Assembly (NCBI RefSeq): GCF_025643595.1 | Contig: NZ_CP102826.1 | Location: 2,852,001-2,916,000 of the forward strand | Length of the DNA: 64,000 bases | Direction of reading: 5' to 3' | From: Saccharopolyspora rosea | GTDB taxonomy: Bacteria; Actinomycetota; Actinomycetes; Mycobacteriales; Pseudonocardiaceae | Shown here: piece after piece, positions 11,685 through 61,856 of the stretch | Numbering within the stretch: the first letter of the stretch is position 1 | Layout of the letters: every line of letters starts with the position of its first letter | Notes under the pieces: model-generated | Told to the model about the DNA's origin: nothing | Database searches by the model: none | What the model saw: the letters and a program-made list of their open reading frames with translations, nothing else | Position numbers and translations under genes: made by a program

Positions 11685-11713
11685 TTGACCGCGACACAGC
11701 GTGCTGGCAAACT
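11685..11713 (+). promoter_or_regulatory. Predicted promoter of the leader peptide/OsmC-MetX operon
   Basis: TTGACC (11685-11690) and CAAACT (11708-11713) with a 17-base spacer. Transcription should start close to 11720-11721, exactly at the ATG of the leader ORF, so the leader would be translated without a 5' UTR. Confidence 0.55.
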
Positions 11714-11720
11714 GTCGGCC

Positions 11721-11807
11721 ATGCGCCAAGGGCAGCGGTTCATCACTCGACGCCACGTTGATCTGCGTCGAACCGCCAGCGCCCTGTGTGCGACCACGCC
11801 CTGCTGA
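11721..11807 (+). CDS. Cysteine-type leader peptide of the OsmC-MetY-MetX operon
   Basis: A 28-residue ORF with the core R-R-H-V-D-L-R-R-T-A-S-A-L-C and a final Cys (C-A-T-T-P-C). Four other ORFs in this window share the H-V-D-[LF] core and late Cys codon, and all precede sulfur genes. Such 'putative leader peptides' are known upstream of actinobacterial sulfur genes; cysteine-dependent ribosome stalling is the likely mode by analogy with mycobacterial polycysteine uORFs. The ATG coincides with the predicted transcription start. The 220 bases between its stop and the OsmC start contain a GC hairpin near 11840-11860 (GGTCCG / CGGACC) that could serve as an attenuator. Confidence 0.75.
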   Translation: MRQGQRFITRRHVDLRRTASALCATTPC

Positions 11808-12027
11808 GAACGCCTGGTACCGCACGTCTTTCACGATCGTCGCCGGTCCGCGCGCGCTCCGGACCATTCCACCCCTCGTTGGCCGGAAGGCCGGCAGCTG
11901 ACCGCATCCGCACGCCCCGACCGCGGAGCGCCTCGGCGATGCGGCCGCGCCATGACCGGATTCCCGCTCGGCGTCCCGCCGCCGGCGGTGACCCGACCGG
12001 CCAACCACCCTGCACAGGAGGAAATCC

Positions 12028-12588
12028 ATGACCTCGACCGATCTGCCGGTCGACAACGGCGTCAACGTCGAAGCCCTGCTCGGCGCCCGCAACGCGCTCG
12101 CCGACACCCCGGAGATCGCCCGGTTCCGCTGGCGCGCGACGAACTCGTGGGTGCGGGGGACCCACAGCGAGTCCACTGTGGAATCGTTTTACGGGTTCGG
12201 GGAGGAGCAGCGGCACAAGAGGACGTTCCGCTTCGACGCCGACCACCCCGAGGCGTTCGCCGCCGAGGACAACGGCGCGACGCCGGTGGAACTGGTGCTG
12301 GTGGCGCTGGGCAGCTGCCTGACCGCGGGCGTCGCGTCGGTCGCGCAGCAGCGGTCGATCCAGTTGCGCTCGGTCCGGGCCACCATCGAGGCCGACTTCG
12401 ACCTGCACGGCATCCTCGGCGCCGATCCCGAGGTCCGCAACGGGTTCAGCGGCGTGCGGGTCAGCTACGACATCGACGCCGATGCCGGTCCCGACGAGAT
12501 CAAGGCCCTCGTCGCGCAGTCGCAGAAGCGCTCGGCCGTCTACGACATCCTCACCAACCCCACGGACGTCTCGGTGGAGGTGGCCTGA
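12028..12588 (+). CDS. OsmC family protein
   Basis: A 186-residue cytoplasmic protein of the OsmC/Ohr fold. The N-terminal half has the typical Y-G-F-G-E-E-Q strand. The helix with the first conserved Cys reads V-A-L-G-S-C-L-T-A-G (about residues 91-100). The second Cys of classical peroxidatic OsmC is replaced: the site reads K-R-S-A-V-Y-D. Thiol peroxidase activity is therefore uncertain; other OsmC-type proteins handle sulfur compounds. A strong AGGAGG site precedes ATG 12028. It is the first gene of a sulfur operon and is followed 27 bases later by a flavin monooxygenase. Confidence 0.88.
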   Translation: MTSTDLPVDNGVNVEALLGARNALADTPEIARFRWRATNSWVRGTHSESTVESFYGFGEEQRHKRTFRFDADHPEAFAAEDNGATPVELVLVALGSCLTAGVASVAQQRSIQLRSVRATIEADFDLHGILGADPEVRNGFSGVRVSYDIDADAGPDEIKALVAQSQKRSAVYDILTNPTDVSVEVA

Positions 12589-12615
12589 ACCGGGCCGCTG
12601 CCAGGAGATCCAACC

Positions 12616-13872
12616 ATGCCGAAGCTGTCCGCTGTCGTCGTCGGCGCGGGTCACTGCGGGTTGGCCGTGAGCCGCTGCCTCGCCGAGCGTTCCATCGACC
12701 ACGTGGTGCTCGAACGCGGCGAGGTGGCGCACTCGTGGCGGACCCAGCGGTGGGACTCGTTCCGGCTGCTGACGCCGAACTGGATGACCAGGTTGCCGGG
12801 GCGCAGCTACCCCGGAACCGATCCCGACGGCTACCGGACGGCCGCGGAGACCGCGCAGCTGATCGCCGAGTACGCCACCGCGACGGGCGCACCGGTGCGC
12901 ACCGGCACCGCGGTCACCTCGGTGCGCCCCGCCGAGGACGGGTTCCTGGTGCGCACCGACCAGGGCGACTGGAGGTCGCGCACCGTCGTGCTGGCCTCCG
13001 GCGCGTGCAACCAACCGCGCGTCCCCGCGCTCGCCGAGGCGGTCCCGCCGGAACTGGCCACCCTCACCGCCCTGGACTACCGGACGCCCGAGCAGCTGCC
13101 GGAAGGCGGCGTGCTCGTCGTCGGCGCCTCCTCCAGCGGGGTCCAGATCGCCGAGGAAGTGCACCGGTCCGGCAGGCCGGTGACGCTCGCGGTCGGCGAG
13201 CACGTGCGGATGCCGCGGACCTACCGCGGGCTCGACGTGCTGTGGTGGATGGACGCCAGCGGCCTGCTCGACGAGTCCTATGTGGACGTACCGGATCTGA
13301 CCCGGGCCCGGGGACTGCCCTCGATGCAGCTCGTCGGAGCACCGCGCACGCTCGACCTCAACGCGTTGCGCCGCCTCGGGGTGCGGCTGGTCGGCAGGCT
13401 GGCCGGTGTGCGGGACGGCGCGTTGCAGTTCTCCGGTTCGCTGCGCAACGTGTGCGCGCTGGCCGACCTGAAGCTGGGGCGGTTGCTGGACACCTTCGAC
13501 GCCTGGGCGGAGTCGTCGGGATTCCGGGACTGCGGACCGGTGGAGCGCTTCCCCGCGACCGAACTGCCGCCGGACCCGCCGCTGACGCTGGACCCGCGCC
13601 GCAGCGGCATCCGCAGCATCGTCTGGGCCACCGGGTTCCGGCCCGACACCTCCTGGCTGGACGTCCCGGTGCGCGACCGCAAGGGGCGGATCCGGCACGA
13701 CGGCGGGGTGACCGCCTGGCCCGGGCTCTACCTCCTGGGAATGCCGTTCCTGCGGCGCCGCAAGTCGACCCTCATCGACGGCGCGGCGGCCGACGCCCGC
13801 GAACTCGCCGAGCACCTGGCCGGGCACCTGGGCACCCGTCGCACGCCGCACACCGAACCGGTCGTCGGCTGA
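12616..13872 (+). CDS. FAD/NAD(P)-dependent monooxygenase (CzcO/FMO-like)
   Basis: A 418-residue two-dinucleotide-binding-domain flavoprotein. FAD loop G-A-G-H-C-G at residues 10-15, a W-D-S-F-R-L-L-T-P segment typical of this family near residue 50, NAD(P) loop G-A-S-S-S-G near residue 172, and the A-T-G-F motif near 337. Related enzymes oxygenate S or N atoms or ketones with NADPH and O2. The substrate is not predictable; its place between OsmC and MetY suggests an organosulfur compound. The start ATG has an AGGAG site about 9 bases upstream. Confidence 0.85.
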   Translation: MPKLSAVVVGAGHCGLAVSRCLAERSIDHVVLERGEVAHSWRTQRWDSFRLLTPNWMTRLPGRSYPGTDPDGYRTAAETAQLIAEYATATGAPVRTGTAVTSVRPAEDGFLVRTDQGDWRSRTVVLASGACNQPRVPALAEAVPPELATLTALDYRTPEQLPEGGVLVVGASSSGVQIAEEVHRSGRPVTLAVGEHVRMPRTYRGLDVLWWMDASGLLDESYVDVPDLTRARGLPSMQLVGAPRTLDLNALRRLGVRLVGRLAGVRDGALQFSGSLRNVCALADLKLGRLLDTFDAWAESSGFRDCGPVERFPATELPPDPPLTLDPRRSGIRSIVWATGFRPDTSWLDVPVRDRKGRIRHDGGVTAWPGLYLLGMPFLRRRKSTLIDGAAADARELAEHLAGHLGTRRTPHTEPVVG

Positions 13873-13899
13873 CCGCGACCGAGACCTTCCGGAGGACCG

Positions 13900-15222
13900 A
13901 TGGACCGCCAGTGGGGCTTCCGCACCCGCGCCCTGCACGCCGGAGCCGTGCCCGACGCCGCGACCGGTGCCCGCGCGGTGCCGATCTACCAGACCACGAG
14001 CTTCGTCTTCACCGACACCGCCGACGCGGCCGGTCTGTTCGCGCTGCAGAAGTACGGCACGGTCTACAGCCGGATGTCCAACCCGACCGTGGCGGCGCTG
14101 GAGGAGCGGCTGGCCAGCCTGGACGGCGGTCTGGGCGCGGTGTGCACCGCCAGCGGCCAGTCCGCCGAGTTCCTGACCTTCGCCTGCCTGGCCGGTGCCG
14201 GTGACGAGATCGTGGCGGCGGCCGGGCTCTACGGCGGGACCATCACGCAGCTGGACGTGACGCTGCGCCGCTTCGGGGTGCACACCACGTTCGTCCGCGG
14301 CGCCGAACCCGACGCGGTGGCCGCGGCCATCACCGACCGCACGAAGCTGGTGTTCGCCGAGGCCATCGCGAACCCCTCCGGCGACATCGCGGACATCGCG
14401 GCGCTGGCCGAAGTGGCGCACGCGGCGGGCGTGCCGCTGGTCATCGACGCCACGCTGGCCACCCCGTACCTGTGCCGGCCGATCGAGCACGGCGCCGACA
14501 TCGTGATCCACTCGGCGACCAAGTTCCTCGGCGGTCACGGCACGACGCTCGGCGGCGCGGTGGTCGAAGCGGGCCGGTTCGACTGGGGCGGCGGCCGGTT
14601 CCCCACCATGACCACGCCCATCCCGTCCTACGGCGGCCTGACCTGGTGGGGGAACTTCCAGGAGTTCGGGTTCCTCACCAAGCTGCGCGCTGAGCAGCTG
14701 CGCGACGTCGGCCCGAGCCTGTCGCCGATGGCGGCGTTCCAGCTGTTGCAGGGGGTGGAGACGCTTCCGCTGCGGATGGCCGCGCACGTCGACAACGCGC
14801 GCACCGTCGCCGAGTGGCTCGCCGCCGACCCGCGGGTGTCCTACGTGCGCTGGGCCGGACTGCCCGACCACCCGCACCACGAGCGGGCCCGGCGCTACAC
14901 CCCGCGGGGACCGGGTGCGGTGTTCGCCTTCGGCGTCAAGGGCGGGCGCGCGGCAGGCCGCCGGTTCATCGAGTCGGTCCGGTTGTGCAGCCACCTGGCC
15001 AACGTGGGCGACGTCCGCACGCTGGTGATCCACCCCGCGTCGACGACGCACCAGCAGCTCAGCGAGTCCCAACTGGACGCTGCGGGCGTGCCCGCGGACC
15101 TGGTCCGGATCAGCGTCGGGCTGGAGGACGTCGACGACATCCTCTGGGACCTCGACGCGGCGCTCGCCGCGGCCGCCGAGGAGTCCGCGGGACGACCCGA
15201 CCGACGAGGAGGTGCCCGGTGA
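13900..15222 (+). CDS. metY: O-acetylhomoserine aminocarboxypropyltransferase-like PLP enzyme
   Basis: A 440-residue member of the Cys/Met-metabolism PLP family. Signature features: Y-S-R-M-S-N-P-T near residue 48, the D-x-T-L-A-T-P-Y strand, and the PLP lysine in [12 protein letters not shown] (Lys near residue 208). The length and the H-P-A-S-T-T-H block fit O-acetylhomoserine sulfhydrylases, which condense O-acetylhomoserine with sulfide to homocysteine. MetX two genes downstream supplies the substrate. A gamma-lyase role is the alternative. A GGAGG site precedes ATG 13900, and the stop overlaps the next start (GTGA). Confidence 0.88.
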
Positions 15223-15698
15223 GCCGGCGATGGGTGGCCCCGACGGCGCTCCAACGGCTGGAACTGCTGCGCCGCACGCGGACGGTCGCGATGCTGGGTG
15301 CCTCGCCGAACCCGGCGCGGGCCAGCAACTTCGTGGCCACGTACCTGCTGGCCAGCACCGACTACGACGTCTACTTCGTCAACCCCAACGCCACCGAGGT
15401 CCTGGGGCGGCCCGCCTACCCCTCGCTGGCGGCGCTGCCGGTGGTACCCGACCTGGTCGACGTCTTCCGCAAACCCGCCGACCTGCCGACCGTGCTGGCC
15501 GAGACGGTGCGGGTGGGCGCATCGGCGCTGTGGCTGCAGTTCGGCCTCCACGACGAGGACATCGCGGCGGAGGCCGAATCCGCCGGTCTGGAGGTCGTCA
15601 TGGACCGCTGCCTGAAGATCGAGCACGCCCGGTTCCACGGCGGGTTGCACCTCGCCGGGTTCAACACCGGGGTGATCAGCTCCCGACGTCCGCGATGA
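15219..15698 (+). CDS. CoA-binding domain protein (YccU-like)
   Basis: A 159-residue Rossmann-fold protein with the CoA-binding pattern V-A-M-L-G-A-S-P-N-P-x-R-x-S near residues 23-36, then V-F-R-K-P-A-D-L and W-L-Q-F-G. It resembles the stand-alone CoA-binding domain of succinyl-CoA synthetase alpha, without the catalytic ligase part. GTG 15219 overlaps the metY stop and is preceded by GAGGAGG; the end overlaps the metX start (ATGA). Such proteins recur beside metX/metY in actinobacteria, but the biochemical role is unproven; binding of acetyl-CoA or a CoA-sulfur species is only a guess. Confidence 0.85.
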   Translation: MSRRWVAPTALQRLELLRRTRTVAMLGASPNPARASNFVATYLLASTDYDVYFVNPNATEVLGRPAYPSLAALPVVPDLVDVFRKPADLPTVLAETVRVGASALWLQFGLHDEDIAAEAESAGLEVVMDRCLKIEHARFHGGLHLAGFNTGVISSRRPR

Positions 15699-16807
15699 GC
15701 GCCCCGAGCAGCGAGGTGACCGGCGCCTGGCGCGACGGGGACCCGGTGGGCCGTCGCCGGTTCGTCGAGGTCGGCGACCTGCCGCTGGAACGGGGCGGCA
15801 CGCTGCCCGGGGTCCGGCTGGCGTACGAGACGTGGGGTGCGCTCAACCCGGCCCGGGACAACGCGGTTCTGGTGCTGCACGCCATGTCCGGCGACAGCCA
15901 CGCGACCGGCGCCGCCGGCCCCGGCCATCCCAGCCCCGGGTGGTGGCGCGGCGTCGTCGGCCCGGGGCTGGCCATCGACACCGACCGGTGGTTCGTGGTC
16001 TGCCCCAACGCGCTCGGCGGGTGCCAGGGATCCACCGGACCGTCGACACCGGCCCCGGACGGGCGTGCCTGGGGCAGCCGGTGGCCCGGCATCACCATCC
16101 GGGACCAGGTGGCGGCCGAGGCGGTCCTGGCCGACGCGCTCGGCGTGCCGAGCTGGGCCGCCGCGGTGGGCGGCTCGATGGGCGGCATGCGGGCGCTGGA
16201 GTGGTCGCTGTGCCGGCCGGACCGCGTGGACCGCGTCGTCGTGCTCTGCGCCGGGGCCGAAGCCTCCGCCGACCAGGTCGCCACCTGCCGGGTGCAGATC
16301 GACGCCATCCGGGCCGACCCGAACTGGCACGACGGCGACTACTACGCGCAGCCCACCGGACCGGTGGTCGGGCTGGCCGTCGCGCGCCGGATCGCGCACC
16401 TGACCTACCGCAGCGCAGCGGAGATCGACACCCGCTTCGGACGCGCGGGCACGCGGGGCGGTGATCCGCTCGTCGAGGGCTTCGCGGTGGAGTCGTGGCT
16501 GGAGCACACCGCCGCCACCCTGGTGAACCGCTTCGACGCGGGCAGCTACGTCGCCCTCACCGAAGCGATGAACACCCACGACATCGGGCGTGGCCGGGGC
16601 GGTGCGGCCGCCGCGGTCGGCCGGATGCGCGCGCGGGCCACGATCGCCGGGGTCGGCTCCGATCGCCTCTACCCGCTGCACCAGCAGACCCGGCTCGCCG
16701 AGCTGCTCGGCGTCCCGCTGCACGTCATCGACTCCCGGCGGGGCCACGACGGTTTCCTGGTGGAGACCGACCAGGTCGGCGCGATCCTGGAGCGGGCGCT
16801 GGGGTGA
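15695..16807 (+). CDS. metX: Homoserine O-acetyltransferase
   Basis: A 370-residue alpha/beta-hydrolase. The nucleophile elbow G-G-S-M-G-G-M-R-A is near residue 155, the acidic member in G-V-G-S-D-R-L-Y-P near 323, and the catalytic His in R-R-G-H-D-G-F-L near 350. It activates homoserine with acetyl-CoA for direct sulfhydrylation by MetY. The N-terminal L-A-Y-E-T-W-G and N-A-L-G-G-C-Q-G-S-T-G-P motifs are diagnostic. ATG 15695 overlaps the preceding stop. Confidence 0.95.
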   Translation: MSAPSSEVTGAWRDGDPVGRRRFVEVGDLPLERGGTLPGVRLAYETWGALNPARDNAVLVLHAMSGDSHATGAAGPGHPSPGWWRGVVGPGLAIDTDRWFVVCPNALGGCQGSTGPSTPAPDGRAWGSRWPGITIRDQVAAEAVLADALGVPSWAAAVGGSMGGMRALEWSLCRPDRVDRVVVLCAGAEASADQVATCRVQIDAIRADPNWHDGDYYAQPTGPVVGLAVARRIAHLTYRSAAEIDTRFGRAGTRGGDPLVEGFAVESWLEHTAATLVNRFDAGSYVALTEAMNTHDIGRGRGGAAAAVGRMRARATIAGVGSDRLYPLHQQTRLAELLGVPLHVIDSRRGHDGFLVETDQVGAILERALG

Positions 16808-16834
16808 GCACATCCGCCGGAGACTGGAGGTCGT

Positions 16835-17900: not shown

Positions 17901-17938
17901 GCAACGCGTGGACCGAGGTCACCCGCGGGCTCGGAGCG

Positions 17939-18811: not shown

Positions 18812-18841
18812 CAGACCCCTCCCGCTGCCTCGCCGGTCGAA

Positions 18842-28383: not shown

Positions 28384-30135
28384 TCAGTGGAGCGTCCCGG
28401 AGACCGGGACGATCGTGCCGCCCGGGACCCACTGGCCCGGGTAGTCGCCGCCCATCGACATGTCCGCCATGTCGGGTGAACGGATCTCCATCGGCATCGC
28501 GCTGACCTGGGCCGAGGCGTAGAGCGTCACGGCGTCGGCGGGCCGGTCCCGGCGGGCCCGCAGCCAGTCGCGGAAGCCGGACGCGGACGGGTTCTCCCCG
28601 CCGAAGCCGTTCTCCAACGCCACGGAGTACTCCAACGACTGCGCGTCGCGCGGGTTGAACCGCAGCGGCAGGAACGAGGTCAGCGCTTCGTTCACCACCG
28701 GGGCGTGCAGCAGCCACGGCGCCAGGTACACGCCCTGGGCGTAGGTCGGCAGCGACGCCTGCCGTTCGGACAGCGCGTGCAGCCGTGGTGCCGCGTCCGC
28801 CCACCCGGAGACGACCACCAGGGCGTTCTCCGGCGAGTCGCGCACCGGCAGGTGGGCGTCGGCGGCGGCCCGGCGGACCACCTCGGCGGCCTGCCGGGAG
28901 CGCGGCGATCCGTCCGCCGCGACGGCGATCCCCGGCACCGACCGGCTCGCGAGCACTCCCACCAGGCGGCGGAGCGCGTCGGCGTCGGCGTCCTCCAGCC
29001 CGTCGGCGGGGCAGCGGGTGAGCACGTCGTGCCGCCCGGCGACCAGGCCGCCGAGCGCGGCTCCGGCGCACTCCGGTCCGTCGGCGCCGGACGCCGCCGG
29101 GATTCCCGGCCCGTCCCCGGCGTCGACCTGCAGGGTCCCATGACCGCGTCCACTGTGGATCATCAGCTCGCCGCGCCCGGCCGGGAGATCGACCTCGGCC
29201 CAGGTGCCCTCGGCGCCGGGGCGGGGCACGGCGCGCACCAGCGGTCCGTCGCCCGTCGCCACCGCGAGGTCCGCGCCCGCACCAGGCGGGAAGTGCACCA
29301 GGTTGCGGCCCGGTCGCTGCGGTGTGACCAGCACCGGCACGGCGGCCTCGCCGACCGGGACGCTCGACAGCAGCGGGACTCCCGGCGTCGGCGGGGCCGG
29401 TGGTTGCGGCAACGCTCCCGCCGCGGTCCACGCGCTCAGCGCCAGCACCGTCCCGGCGGTGGCGACCACCGCGACGGCCCGCCGCAGCCCGACGACGACC
29501 GCGGCGACCACGGGCAGGACCACCGCGGCCACCAGCAGCAGCCCCACCGCGCTGGAGTAGATCCGGCGGTCCAGGCCGATCCCGGACTCCGACAACCGCA
29601 CCACGCCGGTCAGCGCCAGCACGGCCCCGGCGAGCGCGGTGATGCGCCCCGGCCGCACGCCGTCGCGCCACCGCGGTCGCCCGGCGGCGAGCACGGTGAC
29701 CCCGATGCCGACCAGCGCGGCGGCCACGAACACCACGTCGGTGAGCACCGCGACGACGCCGTCGGCCGCGAAGTCCCCGGCCAGCGTCTCCACCAGCACC
29801 AGCAGGCCCAGCGCCGCGCCGATCCCGGCGGCGGGAACCGGGCGGGCGAGCACCGCGGGCAGGGCCAGCACGAGCGCGATCTGCGCCACCGCCACCGGCA
29901 CGACGACCGGCAGCGCGACCAACGACGCCACTCCGGCCGCGGCCGCGACGACCGCCCCCGCGGCGGCCCCGGCCACCGCCCGGCGGCCGGGGCGGACGGC
30001 CAGCGCGGGGCGCAGCAGGCCCGTTCCGCCCGCCACCGCGCTGCCGACCAGCAGGAGCAGCCGCAGGACCACCGCGAGCACGTGACCGTCCACACCGGAC
30101 TGGTGCGCGCCCATGTCCATGCCGCTCATGTCCAT
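28384..30135 (-). CDS. Met-rich membrane protein with large C-terminal outer domain
   Basis: A 583-residue protein. It starts M-D-M-S-G-M-D-M-G-A-H, a copper-ligand-like Met/His cluster, and near the C-terminus has a second one (M-E-I-R-S-P-D-M-A-D-M-S-M-G-G). Residues about 15-260 hold about eight membrane segments; residues 270-583 form a soluble domain. I recognise it only as an uncharacterised actinobacterial family. ATG 30135 directly follows the stop of the methanethiol-oxidase-like gene (TAG-ATG), so the two are coupled. Copper delivery to that protein is an attractive inference, since characterised methanethiol oxidases are copper enzymes. Confidence 0.7.
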   Translation of the reverse strand: MDMSGMDMGAHQSGVDGHVLAVVLRLLLLVGSAVAGGTGLLRPALAVRPGRRAVAGAAAGAVVAAAAGVASLVALPVVVPVAVAQIALVLALPAVLARPVPAAGIGAALGLLVLVETLAGDFAADGVVAVLTDVVFVAAALVGIGVTVLAAGRPRWRDGVRPGRITALAGAVLALTGVVRLSESGIGLDRRIYSSAVGLLLVAAVVLPVVAAVVVGLRRAVAVVATAGTVLALSAWTAAGALPQPPAPPTPGVPLLSSVPVGEAAVPVLVTPQRPGRNLVHFPPGAGADLAVATGDGPLVRAVPRPGAEGTWAEVDLPAGRGELMIHSGRGHGTLQVDAGDGPGIPAASGADGPECAGAALGGLVAGRHDVLTRCPADGLEDADADALRRLVGVLASRSVPGIAVAADGSPRSRQAAEVVRRAAADAHLPVRDSPENALVVVSGWADAAPRLHALSERQASLPTYAQGVYLAPWLLHAPVVNEALTSFLPLRFNPRDAQSLEYSVALENGFGGENPSASGFRDWLRARRDRPADAVTLYASAQVSAMPMEIRSPDMADMSMGGDYPGQWVPGGTIVPVSGTLH

Positions 30136-31962
30136 CTACTTCAGGTCCTCGTCGGCGATCACGAACAGTTCCGAGTGCGGCTTGGCGTTGCCGAACGGCC
30201 CGTGCGGCCAGGACTTCCGGTTGAAGTCGACGCCGACCTGCCCGGTCACCTCGTCGCGGAAGTCCTGGTCGACCCGCAGGCTGCCGTTCGGGGCGACGTC
30301 GACGAGGTTGACCCGGTGGTCGCCGTCGAGACCGGAGCGGGCCACGAAGTAGTTCGACACCGCCACGCGGGTGGGCTGGTCGGTGTCGTGGTAGAAGCCG
30401 TCCGGACCGAGCCGGAAGTGGTCGGCGGTGCCCCAGTGCGGTCCCTGGCCGGGCTGGTCGGGGTTGATCGCCGCGGTGCCGGCCAGCGCCGGGCAGTCCG
30501 CCCCGCCGCCGTGCTGCGCCTTGGCCACCGTGTCGATCTCGCACTGCGGCTGGTCACCGGAGGCCAGCAACCGGGAGATGTCCAATGTGTACACCCCGCC
30601 GGAGGTGCCCGGATCATCGGGACCCAGCGTGCCCTTCGGACGGCCGATCACCGCGTGGTAGAGGTAGTGGTCGTCCGGGCTGGTCTGGATCCACCCGCCG
30701 TTGGTACCCGCGCCGTTGCTGTCGTTGCTCGGGTTGAACGCCTTGTTGGCGGTCCCGTCGTCGAAGACCTCGCGCCAGTGCGGGGTGGGCGAGGTGATGT
30801 CCGGGGTGTAGAAGATCGCGCCGCCCTGCATGCTCTGCGCGAAGGCGCCCCGGTGTTCCGGCCGGTTGGTCACCGTGGTCTCCATGACCGCGCGGCTCTC
30901 CTGGTGCAGCGGGTCCTTCGGGTCGGCGCGCGGCCCGTCCGGCAGGTAGGACACCGCCCGGACCCGCGGGTGGTTGCGGTCGGAGATGTCCCAGGTCCGC
31001 ACGGTCGGCCGCCGCAGGTACGGCGAGGGCTGCTTGACCGGGTCCAGGATGATGTTGCGCGGCTCGACGTAGTCGCTGGTCACCATCGTGTTCAGGTCCT
31101 CGCGGGCCTGGATGCCGTGCGGGTTGGCGCAGGTCGGCTTGTCCAGCGTGGGCAGGTCGTCGCACAGCTTCGGGTTGTCGCCCTGCGGGATCGCGGCGGG
31201 CGACTGGGACAGCACCTTGCCGTTCTGGTCGAAGTGCACGACCTCGCCGGGGCTGCCGGCGAACCCGTTTCCGATGTGGACGGACCCGTCGTCGTACCGG
31301 TACGGCCCGGGTGCCACCGGTCCGCCCATGTAGGTCCCGTAGCTGGTGCCGTCCTTGAGCGTCCAGTACGCGTCCGGCACCGATCCGCCGAGCGTCTGCG
31401 TCGGCAGGGACACGCCCTTGAGCTTGACCGTGGGCAGCGCCTTGACGTCGAAGGCGTAGGTGGTGGCGCCGAACAGGCCGCCCGCGTAGATCGTGTCGCC
31501 CTTGCGCCAGGAGTACTGCATGTGGTGCGGCTCGTTCTCCACCAGCGGGCCGACCGTCGCGGTGTTGACCACCTTGCCGTACTCCGGTGATCCCTTGGTC
31601 ACGTCGATGACGGCCAGGAAGTCCGGCCCCGGCAAGGCGTTGCGGGCCTTGCCGACCGGATCGCGCAGCGATCCGGGCAGGTGCTTGACGTCCTTGACGG
31701 CGGTGTCGGCGACGTTCTCGTCGCCGGCCCACACCAGCAGCCACTCCTTGCGCTTGCCCGCCGACGCGTCGGCGTACTTGGTCACCACGTGGTTGGTGAC
31801 GGAGTAGTCCTTGCCGTCGGTGCCCTTGGTGTGATCGGTGAACACCGCCACGTCGGCGAGCGCCTGCGAGCCACCCGGCGGCAGCGTCACCGCGCCGACC
31901 GCCAAGACGACGGCGCCACCCACTGTCAGACCTCTTCGCCACCAGGGCGAACGCGCGTTCAT
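30136..31962 (-). CDS. Exported SELENBP1/methanethiol-oxidase-like protein
   Basis: A 608-residue protein with a signal peptide (W-W-R-R-G-L-T-V-G-G-A-V-V-L-A-V-G, cleavage near residue 36). The body matches the SELENBP56 beta-propeller family: N-E-P-H-H-M-Q-Y, N-P-H-G-I-Q-A-R-E-D-L, T-S-D-Y-V-E-P, H-Y/W-R segments, and a final D-x-D-P-N-like strand replaced by F-V-I-A-D-E-D-L. Characterised relatives oxidise methanethiol to formaldehyde, H2O2 and sulfide with copper. The catalytic role here is inferred. It is the first gene of a four-gene operon and is preceded by a cysteine-type leader peptide, which supports a sulfur role. ATG 31962 has GGAG 6 bases upstream. Confidence 0.78.
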   Translation of the reverse strand: MNARSPWWRRGLTVGGAVVLAVGAVTLPPGGSQALADVAVFTDHTKGTDGKDYSVTNHVVTKYADASAGKRKEWLLVWAGDENVADTAVKDVKHLPGSLRDPVGKARNALPGPDFLAVIDVTKGSPEYGKVVNTATVGPLVENEPHHMQYSWRKGDTIYAGGLFGATTYAFDVKALPTVKLKGVSLPTQTLGGSVPDAYWTLKDGTSYGTYMGGPVAPGPYRYDDGSVHIGNGFAGSPGEVVHFDQNGKVLSQSPAAIPQGDNPKLCDDLPTLDKPTCANPHGIQAREDLNTMVTSDYVEPRNIILDPVKQPSPYLRRPTVRTWDISDRNHPRVRAVSYLPDGPRADPKDPLHQESRAVMETTVTNRPEHRGAFAQSMQGGAIFYTPDITSPTPHWREVFDDGTANKAFNPSNDSNGAGTNGGWIQTSPDDHYLYHAVIGRPKGTLGPDDPGTSGGVYTLDISRLLASGDQPQCEIDTVAKAQHGGGADCPALAGTAAINPDQPGQGPHWGTADHFRLGPDGFYHDTDQPTRVAVSNYFVARSGLDGDHRVNLVDVAPNGSLRVDQDFRDEVTGQVGVDFNRKSWPHGPFGNAKPHSELFVIADEDLK

Positions 31963-32146
31963 GTGCACTCCGAACATCTCGGGGAACTGGGAACATCTCG
32001 TGGAGATGGACTGTCCGAACAGGACGGACGAACCGCGGCGCGGGCGCGCGCGGTCGGCTTGGAATCCGGCGAACGGACGCCGGCGAACGTGGATCCGCCG
32101 CGAGGGGCCGGAACGGCTCAGCCTTCGAGGCGGTGTCGGAGGACCC

Positions 32147-32227
32147 TCAGGAGCGGGGACACAGGGCGCTGGCTTGGTGGCGCAGGTCGACGTGCAGCCG
32201 CACCACCAGCGAGAGTGCGCGACTCAT
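32147..32227 (-). CDS. Cysteine-type leader peptide of the methanethiol-oxidase-like operon
   Basis: A 26-residue ORF, core V-R-L-H-V-D-L-R-H-Q-A-S-A-L-C-P-R-S. It shares H-V-D-L and A-S-A-L-C with the leader at 11721. TTGACC (32258-32263) and CACGAT (32235-32240), spaced 17 bases on the minus strand, predict transcription starting at about 32228, one base from the ATG, so it is probably leaderless. It ends 184 bases before the structural gene. Regulation by cysteine-dependent stalling is inferred from the family. Confidence 0.72.
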   Translation of the reverse strand: MSRALSLVVRLHVDLRHQASALCPRS

Positions 32228-54469: not shown

Positions 54470-54483
54470 CGGATTCCCATCGG

Positions 54484-56054: not shown

Positions 56055-56064
56055 CGCACCAGTA

Positions 56065-56086
56065 TATGAGTGAGTGCTCACTCATA
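56065..56086. promoter_or_regulatory. TetR operator, 22-bp palindrome
   Basis: TATGAGTGAG-TG-CTCACTCATA: perfect 10-bp arms. It is of the TGAGTGA..TCACTCA class common for TetR regulators of drug exporters and lies 11 bases upstream of the TetR GTG. Confidence 0.85.
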
Positions 56087-56407
56087 GCAACCTCCGGTTC
56101 GAAGCCCGGGTGGGAAATCCTCGGCGGGGACGGGCCTTGTCCAGTGGGTTCGCAACGACGGTGCGCCTGGTCACGCCGGGACCTTCGCCCCTGCTGACCC
56201 CCTGCGCGCGTGGCTACGTTGACGTACGTTTGCGTCACCGGAACGAGCCATTTCCGGCTGTCCGGAATGCACGGAGAGTAGGGGGAAAACCATTCCGGCC
56301 GAAACCAGAATCGCGCCTCAGGGGGGGGACAGGGTGCGACGACAGGGGAGCGGGCCGAGGACCGGCTGGACCTGCTGGCCCGGGCCATCCCCGACTACGC
56401 GATCTTC

Positions 56408-58384
56408 ATGCTCGATGTCGACGGCCACGTGACCAGCTGGAACCCGGGTGCGGAACAGATCAAGGGCTACCGCGCCGACGAGATCCTCGGACGTCACTTC
56501 GCGGTGTTCTACCCGCCGGAGCGGGTCGTCACCGGCGACCCGGACAACGCCCTGCGGGAGGCGGCCCGGGTCGGCTACCACCTCGACCAGGGCTGGCGCG
56601 TCCGCAAGGACGGCAGCCGCTTCTTCGCCGATGTGGCCATCACCGCGCTGCGCGCCTCCGACGGGCGGCTGCGCGGCTTCGCGAAGGTCACGCGGGACGA
56701 GACCGACGCCCGCACCCGGCAGGAACGGGCCAGTCGGCGGTTCAGCGACCTGTGCGGCGTGATCCCGGTCGGCATCGCGCTGTTCGACGAGTCGGGGCGG
56801 GTCGTGGACGCCAACGACACCCTGTGCCGACTGCTCTGCCTGGAGCGCGACCACCTGCGCGGCACGCACGCCGCCGACCTGCTGCACCCGCAGGACCGCG
56901 ACGAGCCGCTGCTCGGCTCCCGGCCGAACAGCCCGGCCGACGAGGCGGTGCACCGCGTGCTGGCGCGCTCGGACGAGCTGCCGCTGCACTGCGACGTGCG
57001 CACCGCCGTCTCGGTGCACGACGACGGGAGCCGCTTCTGGCTGGTCGCCTTCCAGGACGTCACCGACCGGCAGCAGCAGACCGAGCGGCTGCGGTACGAG
57101 GCCACCCACGACGCGCTGACCGGCCTGCCCAACCGCCGCGCCGTCCGGGACCTGCTCGGCGAACTGATGCACGGTCCGGACGCCGAACGGGTGGCGGTGC
57201 TGTTCTGCGACGTCAACAACTTCAAGCGGATCAACGACTCGCTGGGCCACGACGCCGGGGACGAGGTGGTCGTGGAACTGGCCCGGCGGCTGCGCGAGGG
57301 CGTGCCGCCGTGCTGCACCGCCGCGCGGCTGTCCGGCGACGAGTTCGTGGTCGTCTGCCCGGACGTCGGCGGCGTCGGCGGGCTGTCGCGGCTGGCCGAG
57401 GTCGTCTCCGGAGTGCTGCGCACCGCCGTGCCGGTGCGCGGGCAGCTGGTGCGGGTCTCGGCGGCGGTCGGCGGGGTCGTCGGCGCGGACGCCGCGGGGC
57501 GCGGCGAGGACCTGCTGCGCTTCGCCGACGCGGCGATGTACCGGGCCAAGCGGGGCGGCCCCGGGCGGGTGTCGCTGGCGGATCCCGCCCTGGTCGCCGC
57601 CGTGGACGGCCAGCTGCGGCTGGAGACCGAACTGCGCGAGGCCATCGAGGGCGACGGCCTGACCCTGCACTACCAGCCGATCACCGACGGCCGCGGCGAG
57701 ATCCTGAGCGCGGAGGCGTTGGTGCGCTGGCACCACCCGGTGCACGGCTTGCTCTCCCCGGGCGCGTTCCTGCCGGTCGCCGAGCAGAGCGACCTGCTGC
57801 CCGACCTGGACCGGTGGGTGCTGCGCACCGCGCTGGCCGAGGCCGCCGGCTGGCCCACACCGGGCGGGCGCCACCCCAGCATCGCGGTCAACCTGTCGGG
57901 TCTGCTGCCGCACCACCCCGAGTTCGCCGCGGAGATCGCCGCGAGCATCGACGAGTCCGGCATCGACCCGCGCCGGGTGGTGCTGGAGCTGGTGGAGACC
58001 GTGCTGCTGGACCTGCCCGCCGGTCCCCGGCGGGTGATGGAGGAGCTGGCCGAACAGGGCGTGCGGTTCGCCGTCGACGACTTCGGCACCGGTTACTCCT
58101 CGCTCGCCCGGCTCAAGGACACGCCCACCCAGATCATCAAGGCGGACCGCCAGTTCGTCGCCGGGCTCGGCGAGGACGGGCGCGACCTGGCGATCGCGCG
58201 GGCGGTCGCGGAGTTCGCGCACGCCCTGGGCTGCCTGTGCGTGGCCGAGGGCGTGGAGACCCGCGACCAGCACGACCTGCTGGCCGGGGTGGGCATCGAC
58301 GCCTACCAGGGCTGGCTGTTCTCCCACGCGCTGCCGCGCGAGGAGTTCCGCGACCTCCTGGGCGACGGCCGGCTGCACCGGTGA
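56408..58384 (+). CDS. PAS-PAS-GGDEF-EAL protein (c-di-GMP metabolism)
   Basis: At least 658 residues: PAS 1 (W-N-P-G-A-E-Q-I-K-G-Y), PAS 2 (about 115-235), GGDEF domain with active site L-S-G-D-E-F (Ser in place of the first Gly), and EAL domain with S-A-E-A-L-V-R-W, D-D-F-G-T-G-Y-S-S-L and G-V-E-T-R-D-Q-H. EAL residues look intact, so phosphodiesterase activity is likely; the cyclase half may or may not be active. Coding sequence clearly continues upstream of ATG 56408 (D-R-L-D-L-L-A-R-A-I-P-D-Y-A-I-F) to about 56345, but there is no ATG, GTG or TTG in frame before a TAG at 56279. The TGA stop is the first codon of repeat copy G. Confidence 0.88.
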   Translation: MLDVDGHVTSWNPGAEQIKGYRADEILGRHFAVFYPPERVVTGDPDNALREAARVGYHLDQGWRVRKDGSRFFADVAITALRASDGRLRGFAKVTRDETDARTRQERASRRFSDLCGVIPVGIALFDESGRVVDANDTLCRLLCLERDHLRGTHAADLLHPQDRDEPLLGSRPNSPADEAVHRVLARSDELPLHCDVRTAVSVHDDGSRFWLVAFQDVTDRQQQTERLRYEATHDALTGLPNRRAVRDLLGELMHGPDAERVAVLFCDVNNFKRINDSLGHDAGDEVVVELARRLREGVPPCCTAARLSGDEFVVVCPDVGGVGGLSRLAEVVSGVLRTAVPVRGQLVRVSAAVGGVVGADAAGRGEDLLRFADAAMYRAKRGGPGRVSLADPALVAAVDGQLRLETELREAIEGDGLTLHYQPITDGRGEILSAEALVRWHHPVHGLLSPGAFLPVAEQSDLLPDLDRWVLRTALAEAAGWPTPGGRHPSIAVNLSGLLPHHPEFAAEIAASIDESGIDPRRVVLELVETVLLDLPAGPRRVMEELAEQGVRFAVDDFGTGYSSLARLKDTPTQIIKADRQFVAGLGEDGRDLAIARAVAEFAHALGCLCVAEGVETRDQHDLLAGVGIDAYQGWLFSHALPREEFRDLLGDGRLHR

Positions 58385-58664
58385 GAGCCTGTCTTCGAAC
58401 TCGTTTTGCGAGGCGGTGCCGGTGGCGGAACCTCAGCGGCCGTCTCGGCTGTGGGAGCCCCTCCTGATGTATGCCCAATACACGGCGTCGGGGCTGTCCT
58501 CGCGAGACGACCGCTGAGAACCCGCGGCGGTGCCGGTTGCGAGATCGCTCACCGAAAGAGAAAGCGGCTGTCGCCGCTTGCCACGCGGGTTCCGGGACCA
58601 AGTTCAGCTCTGAGGTTCCGCTCCCGGCACCGCCACCCACAAGGAGTTCGAAGACGGGCTCTCA
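58382..58664. repeat. MITE-like repeat, copy G (283 bases)
   Basis: Left TGAGAGCCTGTCTTCGAACT, right GAGTTCGAAGACGGGCTCTCA: near-perfect inverted ends. Contains the hairpin AAGCGGC/GCCGCTT (58562-58579) and the reverse complement of the copy-D block (GATGTATGCCCAATACACGG). Both ends supply stop codons: TGA 58382-58384 for the PAS-GGDEF-EAL gene and TCA 58662-58664 for the convergent MHS transporter. Confidence 0.85.
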
Positions 58665-59978
58665 GAAGTGCAGATCGCGCGGCCGCAACGCCAGTGCCGC
58701 GGCCGCGCCCACCAGTCCGGTGGCCGCCAGGTACGCGCACGCCCACCACGGGGAGCCGCCGCCCGCATCGACCAGCGCGGTGATGACCAGCGGCGTCAGG
58801 CCCGAGGCGTAGATCCCGGAGAACTGGTACACGAACGACGTCCCGGTGTAGCGCAGCCGCACCGGCGACAGCTGGGCGTACAGCGTGCCCTGCGGCGCGT
58901 AGAGCACCGCGTGCACCACGCCGAGCACCAGCACGATCACCACACCGCTCAGCAGCGGATCCCGCGTCTGGAAGGCCAGGAACGCCGGGGGGACCGACAG
59001 CGCGAACAGCACCGCGCCGATCGCGTACGACCGGCGCGGCGTCCAGCGGTCGGCGAGCCGGCCGAACACCGGCAGCAGCACCGCCAGCACGATCGCGGCG
59101 GCCATGACCGACACCAGCACCCCGGTCCGCGGCAGGTGCAGCGTCGAGGTCGCGTAGGACAGGAAGAACACTGCCCAGGTGTTGAACGCCGCGCCCTCCG
59201 CCCACCGCGACAGCAGTCCGAGCACGGTGTTGCGGCGGGTGGCGCGGTCGCGGAACAGGTCCAGGAACGGTGCGCGGACGGTCCCGCGTTCGGCCCGGAC
59301 CTGTTCGAAGGCCGGGGTTTCGGCCACCCGCAGCCGGATCAGCAGGCCGACGAACACCAGCACGACGCTGAGGCCGAAGGCGATCCGCCAGCCGTAGCCG
59401 AGGAACTGGCGTTCGTCGAGCAGGTTGCCCAGCAGCGCGAACAGCCCGGTTCCCAGGCCGAGCCCGAGCGCGAGTCCCACCTGCGGCCACGCCCCGTACC
59501 GGGCCCGCCGGCCCGGTGGTGCGTACTCCACGGCCAGCAGCACCGCGCCCGCCCACTCGCCGCCGACCGCCAGGCCCTGCACCACGCGCAGCGCCACCAG
59601 CAGCAGCGGTGCGAGCAGACCGATGTCCTGGTAGGTGGGCAACGCCCCCATCGCCGCCGTGGCCGCGCCCATCAGGACCATCGTCGCGACCAGCGTGCGC
59701 TTGCGGCCGATGCGGTCACCGATGTGTCCGAAGAGGACACCGCCGATGGGGCGAGCCGCGAAACCCACGAAGAAGGTGGCGAACGCGAGCATCGTCGACA
59801 CCGCCGCGTCCTGGGTGGGGAAGAAGAGCCGGTCGAACACCAGGCTCGCCGCGGTGCTGTAGAGGAAGAAGTCGTACCACTCGATGGTGGTGCCCAGCAG
59901 GCTGGACACCAGGACGGTGCGGATCTCGGCCTGCCGGACTGGCCGGGGCGCGGTCGCGGCGTGCAGACCGGCGGTCAC
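58662..59978 (-). CDS. MHS-family MFS transporter
   Basis: A 438-residue, 12-segment metabolite:H+ symporter (ProP/KgtP/ShiA type): T-I-E-W-Y-D-F-F-L-Y in TM1, G-H-I-G-D-R-I-G-R-K-R-T-L after TM2, and V-Q-G-L-A-V-G-G-E-W-A-G in TM4-5. MHS members import organic acids or betaines. A cysteine-type leader peptide 47 bases upstream and the divergent SsuD gene suggest a sulfonate or organosulfur substrate, replacing the usual SsuABC transporter. GTG 59978 has AGGAGG 6 bases upstream. Confidence 0.88.
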   Translation of the reverse strand: MTAGLHAATAPRPVRQAEIRTVLVSSLLGTTIEWYDFFLYSTAASLVFDRLFFPTQDAAVSTMLAFATFFVGFAARPIGGVLFGHIGDRIGRKRTLVATMVLMGAATAAMGALPTYQDIGLLAPLLLVALRVVQGLAVGGEWAGAVLLAVEYAPPGRRARYGAWPQVGLALGLGLGTGLFALLGNLLDERQFLGYGWRIAFGLSVVLVFVGLLIRLRVAETPAFEQVRAERGTVRAPFLDLFRDRATRRNTVLGLLSRWAEGAAFNTWAVFFLSYATSTLHLPRTGVLVSVMAAAIVLAVLLPVFGRLADRWTPRRSYAIGAVLFALSVPPAFLAFQTRDPLLSGVVIVLVLGVVHAVLYAPQGTLYAQLSPVRLRYTGTSFVYQFSGIYASGLTPLVITALVDAGGGSPWWACAYLAATGLVGAAAALALRPRDLHF

Positions 59979-60025
59979 AACGTGCCTCCTGCTCCGGTTC
60001 GGGGTGGTGGTGCGGGATCGCGGCG

Positions 60026-60106
60026 TCAGGCGCGCGGACACGCCGCCGACGCCACCCGCAGCAGGTCGACGTGGTGGCGCGCGGTCAACAACACCGGCAG
60101 AGGCAC
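60026..60106 (-). CDS. Cysteine-type leader peptide of the MHS transporter
   Basis: A 26-residue ORF with T-A-R-H-H-V-D-L-L-R-V-A-S-A-A-C-P-R-A, the same core as the other leaders. TTGACA (60138-60143), spacer 17, CTAGCG (60115-60120) on the minus strand predict transcription starting near 60108, so GTG 60106 would be close to or at the 5' end. Cysteine-dependent attenuation is inferred. It is only 47 bases from the transporter start. Confidence 0.68.
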   Translation of the reverse strand: MPLPVLLTARHHVDLLRVASAACPRA

Positions 60107-60114
60107 GCACCTGA

Positions 60115-60143
60115 CGCTAGGGAGCCCGGTCGCGAGGTGTCAA
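60115..60143 (-). promoter_or_regulatory. Predicted promoter of the leader at 60026-60106
   Basis: -35 TTGACA, 17-base spacer, -10 CTAGCG. The -10 is a poor match; the -35 and the spacing to the leader start repeat what is seen at the other leader loci. Confidence 0.4.
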
Positions 60144-60269
60144 CGCGGGTCGGGTGCCGCTCAGCATCTGGGAACCGCCGACGCCCGTCGATCTTTGGTC
60201 CGATGTGGACTGAGGTCCGGTGCGCCGACCGCGCACCGGCACCGAGCGAGGTCCGCGTGGTGGGAGCGG

Positions 60270-60298
60270 TTGACACCCGGCGGAACCGGTGCTGCGAT
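60270..60298 (+). promoter_or_regulatory. Predicted promoter of the ssuD leader
   Basis: TTGACA (60270-60275), 17-base spacer, TGCGAT (60293-60298). Transcription would begin near 60305, at an in-frame GTG directly before the leader ATG. The same TTGACA...TGCGAT layout appears before the leader at 61776. Confidence 0.45.
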
Positions 60299-60307
60299 CG
60301 GCGGGTG

Positions 60308-60382
60308 ATGGTCGCTGCGCTGTTCACCAGGCGTCGGCACGTGGACTTCCACCGCGTGGCGACCCAGGCGTGTCGTTCCTGA
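60308..60382 (+). CDS. Cysteine-type leader peptide of ssuD
   Basis: A 24-residue ORF, L-F-T-R-R-R-H-V-D-F-H-R-V-A-T-Q-A-C-R-S. GTG 60305 directly before ATG 60308 could be the leaderless start. Its stop is 80 bases from ssuD. It shares R-R-R-H-V-D and Q-A-C-R with the next leader at 61776. Confidence 0.75.
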   Translation: MVAALFTRRRHVDFHRVATQACRS

Positions 60383-60462
60383 ACCATCCCGCCTGCCACG
60401 CACCGCCCGCCCTCCTCGCGCGCCGGGCCGGACTCCTGCTCGTCTTCCTGGGAGAAACACAC

Positions 60463-61632
60463 ATGTCGTTGACGTTCCACTGGTTCCTGCCCACCTACGG
60501 CGACAGCCGCTACCTGGTCGGGGGCGGCCACGGCGTGGCCACCACGACGGCCGGGGGCGCGCGTCCGGCGACGCTGGGCTACCTCGGGCAGATCGCGCGC
60601 AGTGCCGAACAACTCGGGTTCGCCGGTGCGCTGACGCCGACCGGGGCGTGGTGCGAGGACGCCTGGCTGTCGACCGCGATGCTCACCGAGGTCACCGAGC
60701 GGCTGAAGTTCCTCGTCGCGTTCCGGCCCGGACTGCTGTCGCCGACGCTCGGCGCGCAGATGGCCGCCACCTTCCAGCGGCACTCCCGGGGGCGGTTGCT
60801 GCTCAACGTGGTGACCGGCGGGGAGAGCGCCGAACAGCGCGCCTACGGCGACTTCCTGGACAAGGCCGCCCGCTACGCCCGCTGCGACGAGTTCCTGCAC
60901 GTGGTGCGGTCGCTGTGGCGCGGTGAGCGGGTCGACTTCACCGGCGAGCACCTGCGCGTCGAGGGCGCCGAGCTCACCCGCACCCCGAACCCCGTGCCGA
61001 CCGTCTACTTCGGAGGGTCCTCGGCGGAGGCGGGCCGGGTCGCCGCGCGGCACAGCGACGTCTACCTGACCTGGGGTGAGCCACCGGCCCAGGCCGCCGA
61101 GAAGATCAGCTGGATCCGCGGGCTGGCGGCCGAGCAGGGGCGCTCCCCGCGGTTCGGCATCCGGCTGCACGTGATCAGCCGCGACAGCTCCGAGCAGGCG
61201 TGGGCGGAGGCGCAGCGGCTGCTGGACGCGTTGGATCCCGCGACGATCTCCCGGGTGCAGGACGGCTTGGGGCGCAGCGAATCCGAGGGGCAGCGCAGGA
61301 TGCGCGAGCTGCACGGCGGATCGACCGCGGACCTGGAGATCTACCCCAACCTGTGGGCGGGTGTCGGTCTGGTGCGCGGCGGTGCGGGGACCGCGCTGGT
61401 CGGCAGCCACGCCGAAGTCGCCGAGCGGATCGAGGAGTACCACGCGTTGGGCATCGACGAGTTCGTGCTGTCCGGGCACCCGCACCTGGAGGAGGCGTAC
61501 TGGTTCGGCGAAGGCGTGCTGCCGATCCTGGAGCGCAAGGGCCTGTGGCGGCATCCGGCCGCCGAGGTCGACGACTCCGCTGTCAGCATCCCGTTCGCGG
61601 GCGCCGGGGCGGTGCCGACGCCGTCGAGCTGA
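60463..61632 (+). CDS. ssuD: FMNH2-dependent alkanesulfonate monooxygenase (SsuD-like)
   Basis: A 389-residue LLM-family enzyme. F-H-W-F-L-P-T-Y-G-D near the N-terminus, L-T-P-T-G-A-W-C-E-D-A-W, F-L-V-A-F-R-P-G-L-L-S-P-T and L-L-N-V-V-T-G-G-E are SsuD hallmarks, including the Cys near residue 66 in the C-E-D motif. It cleaves C-S bonds of alkanesulfonates to sulfite and aldehyde with reduced FMN. The partner reductase SsuE is not in view. A GGGAGAA site precedes ATG 60463. Confidence 0.92.
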   Translation: MSLTFHWFLPTYGDSRYLVGGGHGVATTTAGGARPATLGYLGQIARSAEQLGFAGALTPTGAWCEDAWLSTAMLTEVTERLKFLVAFRPGLLSPTLGAQMAATFQRHSRGRLLLNVVTGGESAEQRAYGDFLDKAARYARCDEFLHVVRSLWRGERVDFTGEHLRVEGAELTRTPNPVPTVYFGGSSAEAGRVAARHSDVYLTWGEPPAQAAEKISWIRGLAAEQGRSPRFGIRLHVISRDSSEQAWAEAQRLLDALDPATISRVQDGLGRSESEGQRRMRELHGGSTADLEIYPNLWAGVGLVRGGAGTALVGSHAEVAERIEEYHALGIDEFVLSGHPHLEEAYWFGEGVLPILERKGLWRHPAAEVDDSAVSIPFAGAGAVPTPSS

Positions 61633-61649
61633 CCGGTCGGTCCTGGCGA

Positions 61650-61690
61650 GCGCGGAAGGCGGTCCTGCGGCCGCCTTCCGCGCTTTTCGT
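61650..61690 (+). terminator. Rho-independent terminator of ssuD
   Basis: A 13-bp perfect stem (61650-61662 / 61671-61683), 8-base loop, followed by a T-rich run (TTTTCGTTTT). It is 18 bases past the ssuD stop and separates ssuD from the next leader-controlled unit. Confidence 0.9.
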
Positions 61691-61739
61691 TTTCCTGGAC
61701 CGGAATGTGGGAGGTTCCGGGACCGGGATGTGGGAGGCG

Positions 61740-61769
61740 TTGACACTGCGTTGCGCGGTCTGCTGCGAT
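61740..61769 (+). promoter_or_regulatory. Predicted promoter of the sfnG leader
   Basis: TTGACA (61740-61745), 18-base spacer, TGCGAT (61764-61769). It predicts transcription starting near 61776, the GTG of the leader. Confidence 0.45.
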
Positions 61770-61775
61770 GGTAGC

Positions 61776-61856
61776 GTGATCTTCGGGAACGAGCTGACGC
61801 GGCGACGTCACGTCGATCTGGTCCGCGTCTGCGCCCAGGCGTGTCGCGGCTGCTGA
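61776..61856 (+). CDS. Cysteine-type leader peptide of the sfnG operon
   Basis: A 26-residue ORF with E-L-T-R-R-R-H-V-D-L-V-R-V-C-A-Q-A-C-R-G-C: the same core, with three Cys codons, the most of the five leaders. It ends 100 bases before sfnG. The terminator at 61650 isolates it from ssuD, so it has its own promoter. Confidence 0.75.
   Translation: MIFGNELTRRRHVDLVRVCAQACRGC

Follow-up and report, generated by a model that had tools for sequence, protein, structure and literature searches.

What do the short upstream open reading frames (uORFs) that stand before sulfur genes in the soil actinomycete Saccharopolyspora rosea sense, and by what route would that signal reach the genes behind them? 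The question is raised by a window of 64,000 nucleotides (the whole stretch analysed here, positions 2,852,001 to 2,916,000 of contig NZ_CP102826.1), in which a sequence-only reading had pointed to five open reading frames (ORFs) with a common peptide core. Both the frames and the core are borne out, with the qualification that the two minus-strand ORFs had been given by their low, stop-side coordinate. The core, H-V-D-[LF]-x-x-x-[AC]-[STA]-x-[ALQ]-C ending no more than eight residues before the stop, occurs five times in the window and not once in 200 windows generated by a first-order Markov model. The five uORFs, each an ORF that also matches the NCBIfam model NF042934, are as follows.

11721..11807, plus strand: uORF 1, MRQGQRFITRRHVDLRRTASALCATTPC, sensor codon TGT at 11787-11789
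32147..32227, minus strand: uORF 2, MSRALSLVVRLHVDLRHQASALCPRS, sensor codon TGT at 32161-32159
60026..60106, minus strand: uORF 3, VPLPVLLTARHHVDLLRVASAACPRA, sensor codon TGT at 60040-60038
60308..60382, plus strand: uORF 4, MVAALFTRRRHVDFHRVATQACRS, sensor codon TGT at 60371-60373
61776..61856, plus strand: uORF 5, VIFGNELTRRRHVDLVRVCAQACRGC, sensor codon TGT at 61842-61844

NF042934 (cis_reg_atten, "putative leader peptide") matches all five peptides, uORF 1 (33.7 bits) and uORF 3 (31.5 bits) above its cut-off of 27 and uORF 2 (20.0 bits), uORF 4 (19.1 bits), and uORF 5 (19.7 bits) under it. The 45-bit cut-offs of NF042936 (leader_Ms4527A) and NF042933 (leader_Ms5788A) were not reached, the top scores being 24.7 and 21.6 bits (uORF 5). 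These three models have a core in common with the window peptides but carry no codon or spacer information. A Pfam scan of the five peptides returned no family, a scan of the window against Rfam returned no family, and a tRNA scan of the window returned none. No two Cys codons are adjacent in any of the five leaders, contrary to the polycysteine-type sensing that the sequence-only reading had invoked; judged from sequence comparison, the sensor is one fixed Cys position, a position-locked codon that is usually UGU.

The comparison drew on three sets of leaders, which may overlap. The genus/order set holds 137 leaders from 13 genomes (that of S. rosea, eight more of the genus, and four of the order), those of the relatives being the strongest 120 of at least 132 matches listed. 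The named set, of 80 loci among at least 120 stretches, came from a codon-neutral DNA pattern run over a collection of species genomes; all 80 are actinobacterial by title and have ORFs of no more than 45 residues, and one (L184) is itself a Saccharopolyspora. Codon counts for this set cover all 80 loci (L174 without a start), and first-gene counts cover 78 (L209 and L223 have no clear gene). A third set consists of the 24 of 29 new loci from a phylum-wide scan (L277-L305) that fitted the core expression and were counted; the other five did not fit.

Nine residues after the core Asp (Asp+9), Cys is present in 137/137 genus/order leaders, a register that the profile used to find them itself favours. 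At this position 226 of the 241 leaders carry UGU (127/137 genus/order, 77/80 named, and 22/24 further), although UGU is the rarer Cys codon in coding sequence, making up 15/217 Cys codons in the downstream genes of the genus/order set and 120/1029 in the coding frames of the named loci (7-12%). Elsewhere in the genus set Cys is mostly encoded by UGC (15/15 at Asp+2, 7/7 at Asp+7, and 13/14 at Asp+10), and TGT accounts for 3/40 non-sensor Cys codons before the sensor and 14/44 after it in the 137 leaders. Non-sensor codons of the named set are mixed (TGT in 22/49 before and 8/28 after; 8/20 at Asp+5, 5/7 at Asp+7, and 7/10 at Asp+8), with the lock at Asp+9 still the strongest. When leaders are grouped by downstream gene, 36 of 38 classes have TGT throughout at the sensor, the other two being the sulfite-reductase leaders and one of three taurine-type leaders, but the 38 include 14 singletons, some clearly part of other classes, and are not all independent. 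The surrounding peptide is also conserved: Arg-4 occurs in 120 of the 121 unique peptides of the 137-leader set, a single Cys in 77/137 leaders, and between zero and five residues follow the sensor Cys in 131/137. Third bases are at background over most of the rest of the core, which means that selection acts on the core at the peptide level and on Asp+9 at the codon level. A role for UGU as a structural base seems less probable, since its effect on folding energy is slight and goes in both directions (mean -0.31 kcal, 5th-95th percentile -2.4 to +2.1).

Base composition changes at the uORF stop: the difference C minus G, -0.04 ahead of it, climbs to +0.23 in the 137 loci, and the 80 named loci show a rise from +0.01 to +0.27. 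This excess of C over G fades over about 60 nucleotides but stays above control level; the controls were 74 upstream gaps, with a value of 0.012, and the sequence behind 244 ordinary stops, with 0.027 (p = 3e-19 for the latter compared to the named leaders). A C-rich, G-poor region thus lies directly after the stop, as in a TnaC-type layout. The pentamer CCUCC is at expectation there, with 20/137 loci (26.1 expected) and 19/80 (18.9 expected), and this combination of compositions favours a putative Rho-loading region over an element that pairs with the Shine-Dalgarno (SD) sequence. Two such spacers are evident in the window.

60383..60462, plus strand: C-rich, G-poor spacer after uORF 4, proposed Rho-loading region
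61857..61956, plus strand: C-rich, G-poor spacer after uORF 5, proposed Rho-loading region

Promoter-like hexamers precede each window uORF, spaced for transcription to start at about the start codon, and the following are examples.

11685..11715, plus strand: promoter-like hexamers of uORF 1, TTGACC at 11685-11690 and AACTGT at 11710-11715, a layout of the kind that the scoring favours
60261..60298, plus strand: uORF 4 promoter, TGGGA box at 60261-60265, -35 TTGACA at 60270-60275, -10-like TGCGAT at 60293-60298
61731..61769, plus strand: uORF 5 promoter, TGGGA box at 61731-61735 (another at 61708-61712), -35 TTGACA at 61740-61745, -10-like TGCGAT at 61764-61769

The score used to choose starts favours a leaderless layout, and the measure was therefore repeated on loci with one possible ATG/GTG start. 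The -10-like hexamer ends 7 nucleotides before the start in 29/56 such genus/order loci, while the 21 single-start named loci give a weaker peak (five at 6 nucleotides and three at 7). From this spacing the window leaders are predicted to be leaderless, a layout that shows clearly in the genus and less so in the named sample. A further promoter element, a TG[AG]GA box at -80 to -31, occurs in 20/22 Q[AGS]C-type leaders, which in S. rosea stand before SsuD-like, SsuE, SfnG, and RibB-like genes, compared to 32/114 others. The first box starts 20-21 nucleotides before TTGAC in 13/20 loci and 9 nucleotides before it in five; of the remaining two, uORF 5 carries a second box at 9 nucleotides. Since these spacings lie about one helical turn apart, the sequences suggest an activator site for the organosulfur-type leaders.

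The leaders extend well beyond the window. A search of the 6.56 Mb S. rosea genome with the NF042934 profile found 24 places at E ≤ 10, nine of them over the cut-off, and 17 are short uORFs with the leader layout; the seven others (L018-L024), either embedded in long reading frames or without that arrangement, were discarded as noise. The genes behind the 17 are clearly sulfur-related in 11 cases: NirA-like reductase - CysH - CysD; a rhodanese/sulfurtransferase; cysteine dioxygenase; SsuD-like; SsuE; SfnG; SfnB-like with a monooxygenase; an MHS transporter with an NtaA/DmoA-family monooxygenase; SsuA-like - TauB-like - permease - TauD-like; an SsuC-like permease; and OsmC-like - flavin monooxygenase - MetY. 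For three more the sulfur link is uncertain (an SDF-family symporter, a second MHS transporter, and a protein weakly similar to SBP56/MtoX), and three have no obvious sulfur role (a RibB-like gene, a winged-helix protein, and GNAT with an amino-acid permease). NCBIfam equivalog cut-offs are not reached by several of the "-like" genes. The sequence-only reading had proposed one regulon over its five loci; the 11/17 copies before clear sulfur genes support the regulon, but its loci number 17, not five.

How would one codon govern these operons? Cysteine sensing in cis is likely; the stall, the help from the nascent core, the involvement of Rho, and the direction of the response are inferred as follows. 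The mRNA would begin roughly with the uORF start codon, its first codon thereby serving as the loading point for the ribosome, and the core R-x-[HY]-[VI]-D-L-x-R-V-x-S-x-x-C would sit in the exit tunnel as the Asp+9 Cys codon enters the A site. A shortage of Cys-tRNA would make the ribosome stall at the slow UGU, with help from the nascent core, and the start of the C-rich spacer would be hidden from Rho, leaving the operon to be transcribed. When cysteine is plentiful, the ribosome would end within a few codons and leave, and the exposed spacer would allow Rho to terminate transcription. A stall from Cys-tRNA shortage would thus have the sign expected for acquisition genes, and the predicted leaderless start, the core-to-Cys register, the rarer codon near the stop, and the C-rich spacer together fit a nascent-chain-helped stall that shields a Rho region. 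We tentatively favour this reading, of a nascent-peptide-assisted stall at UGU that protects the RNA from Rho across a 17-locus cysteine-controlled sulfur regulon, with confidence just short of even.

Several observations weigh against this Rho-gated stall, beginning with the bias of the finding profile towards the Asp-to-Cys register given above. The sulfite-reductase leaders (nirA-cysH; L025, class 0) have TGC at the sensor in all nine genus members and TGT in two order members. The sensor is not the only deviant third base, as the core Asp codon is GAT in 50/137 leaders (36% A/T-ending vs 10% in genes) and Leu+1 is A/T-ending in 11% vs 2%, with Ala+7 deviating less. The sensor codon is also less paired as UGU than as UGC (unpaired 0.42 vs 0.34, p = 3e-6, 204 leaders), making a structural reason for the choice possible, and a C-rich composition is by itself no proof of Rho loading. 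Three further points concern the SD: the genus set has an excess of TCTCC behind the stop (28 vs 12.3 expected), one that the named set does not clearly repeat (12 vs 8.3); pairing between leader and SD slightly exceeds that of shuffled leaders (unpaired 0.346 vs 0.365, p = 0.016, 130/137 loci folded); and the mechanism published for Mycobacterium smegmatis is reportedly translational and without Rho, from which the Rho-gated stall differs.

These last points speak for translational attenuation, as reported for M. smegmatis (PMC13236596, PMC9031893), in which a stall on Cys codons would free a hidden downstream SD, Rho would have no role, and the peptide would matter only by its Cys. Masking the footprint of a stalled ribosome raises SD accessibility from 0.346 to 0.414, as this mechanism would have it, although the shorter RNA gives a rise anyway. 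The folding effect is small, however, in a test whose script misassigned some downstream starts (e.g., SsuD), and shuffling the spacer leaves SD accessibility unchanged (p = 0.60). The smallness of the effect makes SD sequestration less probable as a general rule, CCUCC is not enriched, and translational attenuation leaves both the conserved Arg-4 to Asp+4 core and the one-position UGU unexplained; we consider it possible but rather doubtful.

The strict core-to-Cys register and the single Cys of many leaders, along with a sequence of uORF, stop, and C-rich region that resembles the tnaC layout in the available text of PMC8429421, would suit an arrest peptide whose signal, bound in the exit tunnel, is free cysteine or some other sulfur metabolite, much as tryptophan is for TnaC. 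The synonymous lock on UGU points instead to decoding at the sensor codon, and acquisition genes call for a stall at low, not high, cysteine, which makes such a peptide improbable. Attenuation of the classical kind, by an intrinsic terminator within the spacer, has precedents at other actinobacterial amino-acid leaders in what is accessible of PMC8079986 and PMC1262725, but runs of at least five T within 120 nucleotides of the stop are found at only 10/137 and 8/80 loci (hairpins were not scanned), the window has no Rfam family, and mycobacterial cys leaders have no terminator in the part of PMC1262725 available; we think it very improbable. A last possibility is that the leaders encode small proteins working in trans and stand ahead of sulfur genes merely for co-regulation. 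This would suit the amino-acid conservation of the core but gives no role to the one-codon synonymous lock or the stop-proximal C-rich spacer, has 17 separate copies heading operons against it, and is hardly credible.

For the Rho-gated stall, the tRNA complement bears on how UGU could be distinguished. One tRNA-Cys gene (GCA, with A36-A37-A38) was found by a pattern scan, which may miss others, and the choice of UGU would therefore act via wobble decoding, not via a second tRNA. The sulfur-dependent modification ms2i6A of tRNA A37 is made by MiaB, which is encoded in the genome. On these grounds, and with the UGU lock confined to one position, the conserved nascent peptide and UGU, decoded by G-U wobble, might together make up an actinobacterial class of single-codon gauge that senses sulfur twice, through Cys-tRNA charging and through A37 modification, gating Rho at up to 17 operons: decoding of UGU would drop first, both on low charging and on failed modification. 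The A37 link is a conjecture, and we regard the double gauge as unlikely.

Searches of relatives indicate how widely the leaders occur. NF042934 profile matches are present in 13/13 genomes of the genus and order at E ≤ 0.2, with 9-19 in each of the nine genus members and 3-9 in the four order genomes. The leader type of seven genus members is also found in Saccharopolyspora oryzae (L184). Of 296 genomes sampled across the phylum, 25 reach E ≤ 0.001, counting S. rosea, and with a single exception they share one class, but no more than 29 candidates were scored per genome and S. rosea has 10 matches there vs 18 otherwise, which makes the absences soft. First genes of the named set (78 scanned) include nitrite/sulfite reductase domains (30), luciferase-like monooxygenases (13), FMN reductases (10), and sulfatases (4).

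Canestrari et al. reportedly found cysteine-responsive leaderless polycysteine uORFs in M. smegmatis in 2020. Papers that cite this work describe leaderless polycysteine uORFs that respond to cysteine (PMC13236596, PMC9094748, PMC9031893), and a 2015 paper (PMC4633059) reported Cys-rich uORFs of the leaderless kind. The claim that leaders are known before actinobacterial sulfur genes therefore holds, and the layout in the window is of the type reported to be cysteine-responsive (PMC13236596, PMC9031893). The likeness lies in the predicted leaderless start, the place at the head of sulfur operons, and Cys codons near the stop; unlike those of M. smegmatis, the window leaders lack contiguous Cys codons and 77/137 sampled leaders have one Cys. 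The Cys leader peptides of Mycobacterium, Propionibacterium acnes, and Bifidobacterium longum (Seliverstov 2005, PMC1262725) are likewise small reading frames that precede cys operons, have their Cys codons close to the stop, and lack terminators, and Rho was suggested there as a weak prediction; they differ by runs of Cys codons, and the available portion does not mention a codon lock. The Escherichia coli TnaC leader, in the part of PMC8429421 available, resembles the layout proposed here in a stall near the leader end and a Rho-loading site right after the stop, but differs in its unrelated sequence, its stall at the stop codon, free Trp as inducer, and a catabolic operon. Before cysS of Rhodobacterales, uORFC-8-2 is likewise a Cys-codon attenuator, though with tandem, mostly UGC Cys codons and a structured RNA with a terminator-like U run (PMC8632094).

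What was known already is the cysteine-responsive leader uORF of mycobacteria; what is new here is a one-position UGU sensor with no polycysteine run. Neither the UGU lock nor the Asp+9 register appears in the accessible portions of PMC8079986, PMC13236596, PMC4633059, PMC8632094, PMC1262725, PMC9094748, PMC8429421, PMC12121999, PMC9031893, or PMC7790235, and we found no report of these two features or of the C-over-G excess in the available open-licence literature, though they may be in print elsewhere. If the reading is right, one synonymous codon choice would mark the sensing site of a sulfur regulon, making the stalling codon readable from sequence, and both the help of the peptide in the stall and the choice between Rho and the ribosome-binding site would become directly testable. 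Actinomycete sulfur regulons could then be listed from short stretches of DNA, including unsuspected operons such as those of the RibB-like protein, the winged-helix protein, and GNAT with a permease.

The genes behind the five window leaders, assigned from profile matches, are listed below.

12028..15222, plus strand: OsmC-like gene, flavin-dependent monooxygenase, and MetY after uORF 1
12616-13872, plus strand: the flavin-dependent monooxygenase of the uORF 1 operon
13900-15222, plus strand: MetY of the uORF 1 operon
15212-16807, uORF 1 operon: alpha-beta hydrolase ORF, sole match Pfam Abhydrolase_1
28384..31977, minus strand: two large ORFs after uORF 2, 30136-31977 with weak SBP56/MtoX similarity and 28384-30135 with no Pfam or NCBIfam match
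58662..59978, minus strand: MHS-type metabolite/H+ symporter after uORF 3 (360.7 bits, cut-off 443)
60463..61632, plus strand: SsuD-like alkanesulfonate monooxygenase after uORF 4 (452 bits, cut-off 518)
61957..63078, plus strand: SfnG dimethylsulfone monooxygenase after uORF 5 (587 bits, cut-off 383)

The symporter, the SsuD-like gene, and SfnG were found where the sequence-only reading had put them, and two of its other assignments stood in part. In the supposed OsmC-MetY-MetX operon the OsmC-like gene (63.6 bits, cut-off 95) and MetY are present, but the monooxygenase had been overlooked, and the ORF that could be MetX is a candidate by its Abhydrolase_1 match. The label "methanethiol-oxidase-like" for 30136-31977 has behind it sub-threshold matches to MtoX (25.3 bits, cut-off 650) and SBP56 (18.3 bits, cut-off 34). 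Both large proteins of 28384-31977 are without a Pfam family above cut-off, and the leader ahead of them recurs in six of the relatives searched.

Some further loci are worth recording. The RibB-like DHBP synthase gene behind a leader (L030:3701-4300, minus strand; uORF at genome positions 4560862-4560906) ties riboflavin supply to organosulfur monooxygenases. The winged-helix (Trans_reg_C) protein of 173 residues (L035:3679-4200, minus strand; uORF at 2783776-2783826), whose leader is kept in 8/9 genus genomes, is a candidate sulfur regulator. A divergent, back-to-back pair of uORFs (L029, genome positions 2506391-2506661) has the MHS transporter and NtaA/DmoA-family monooxygenase on one side and the SfnB-like gene on the other. 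Within the window, a PAS-PAS-GGDEF-EAL protein is encoded at 56408-58384 on the plus strand, close to the sulfonate cluster.

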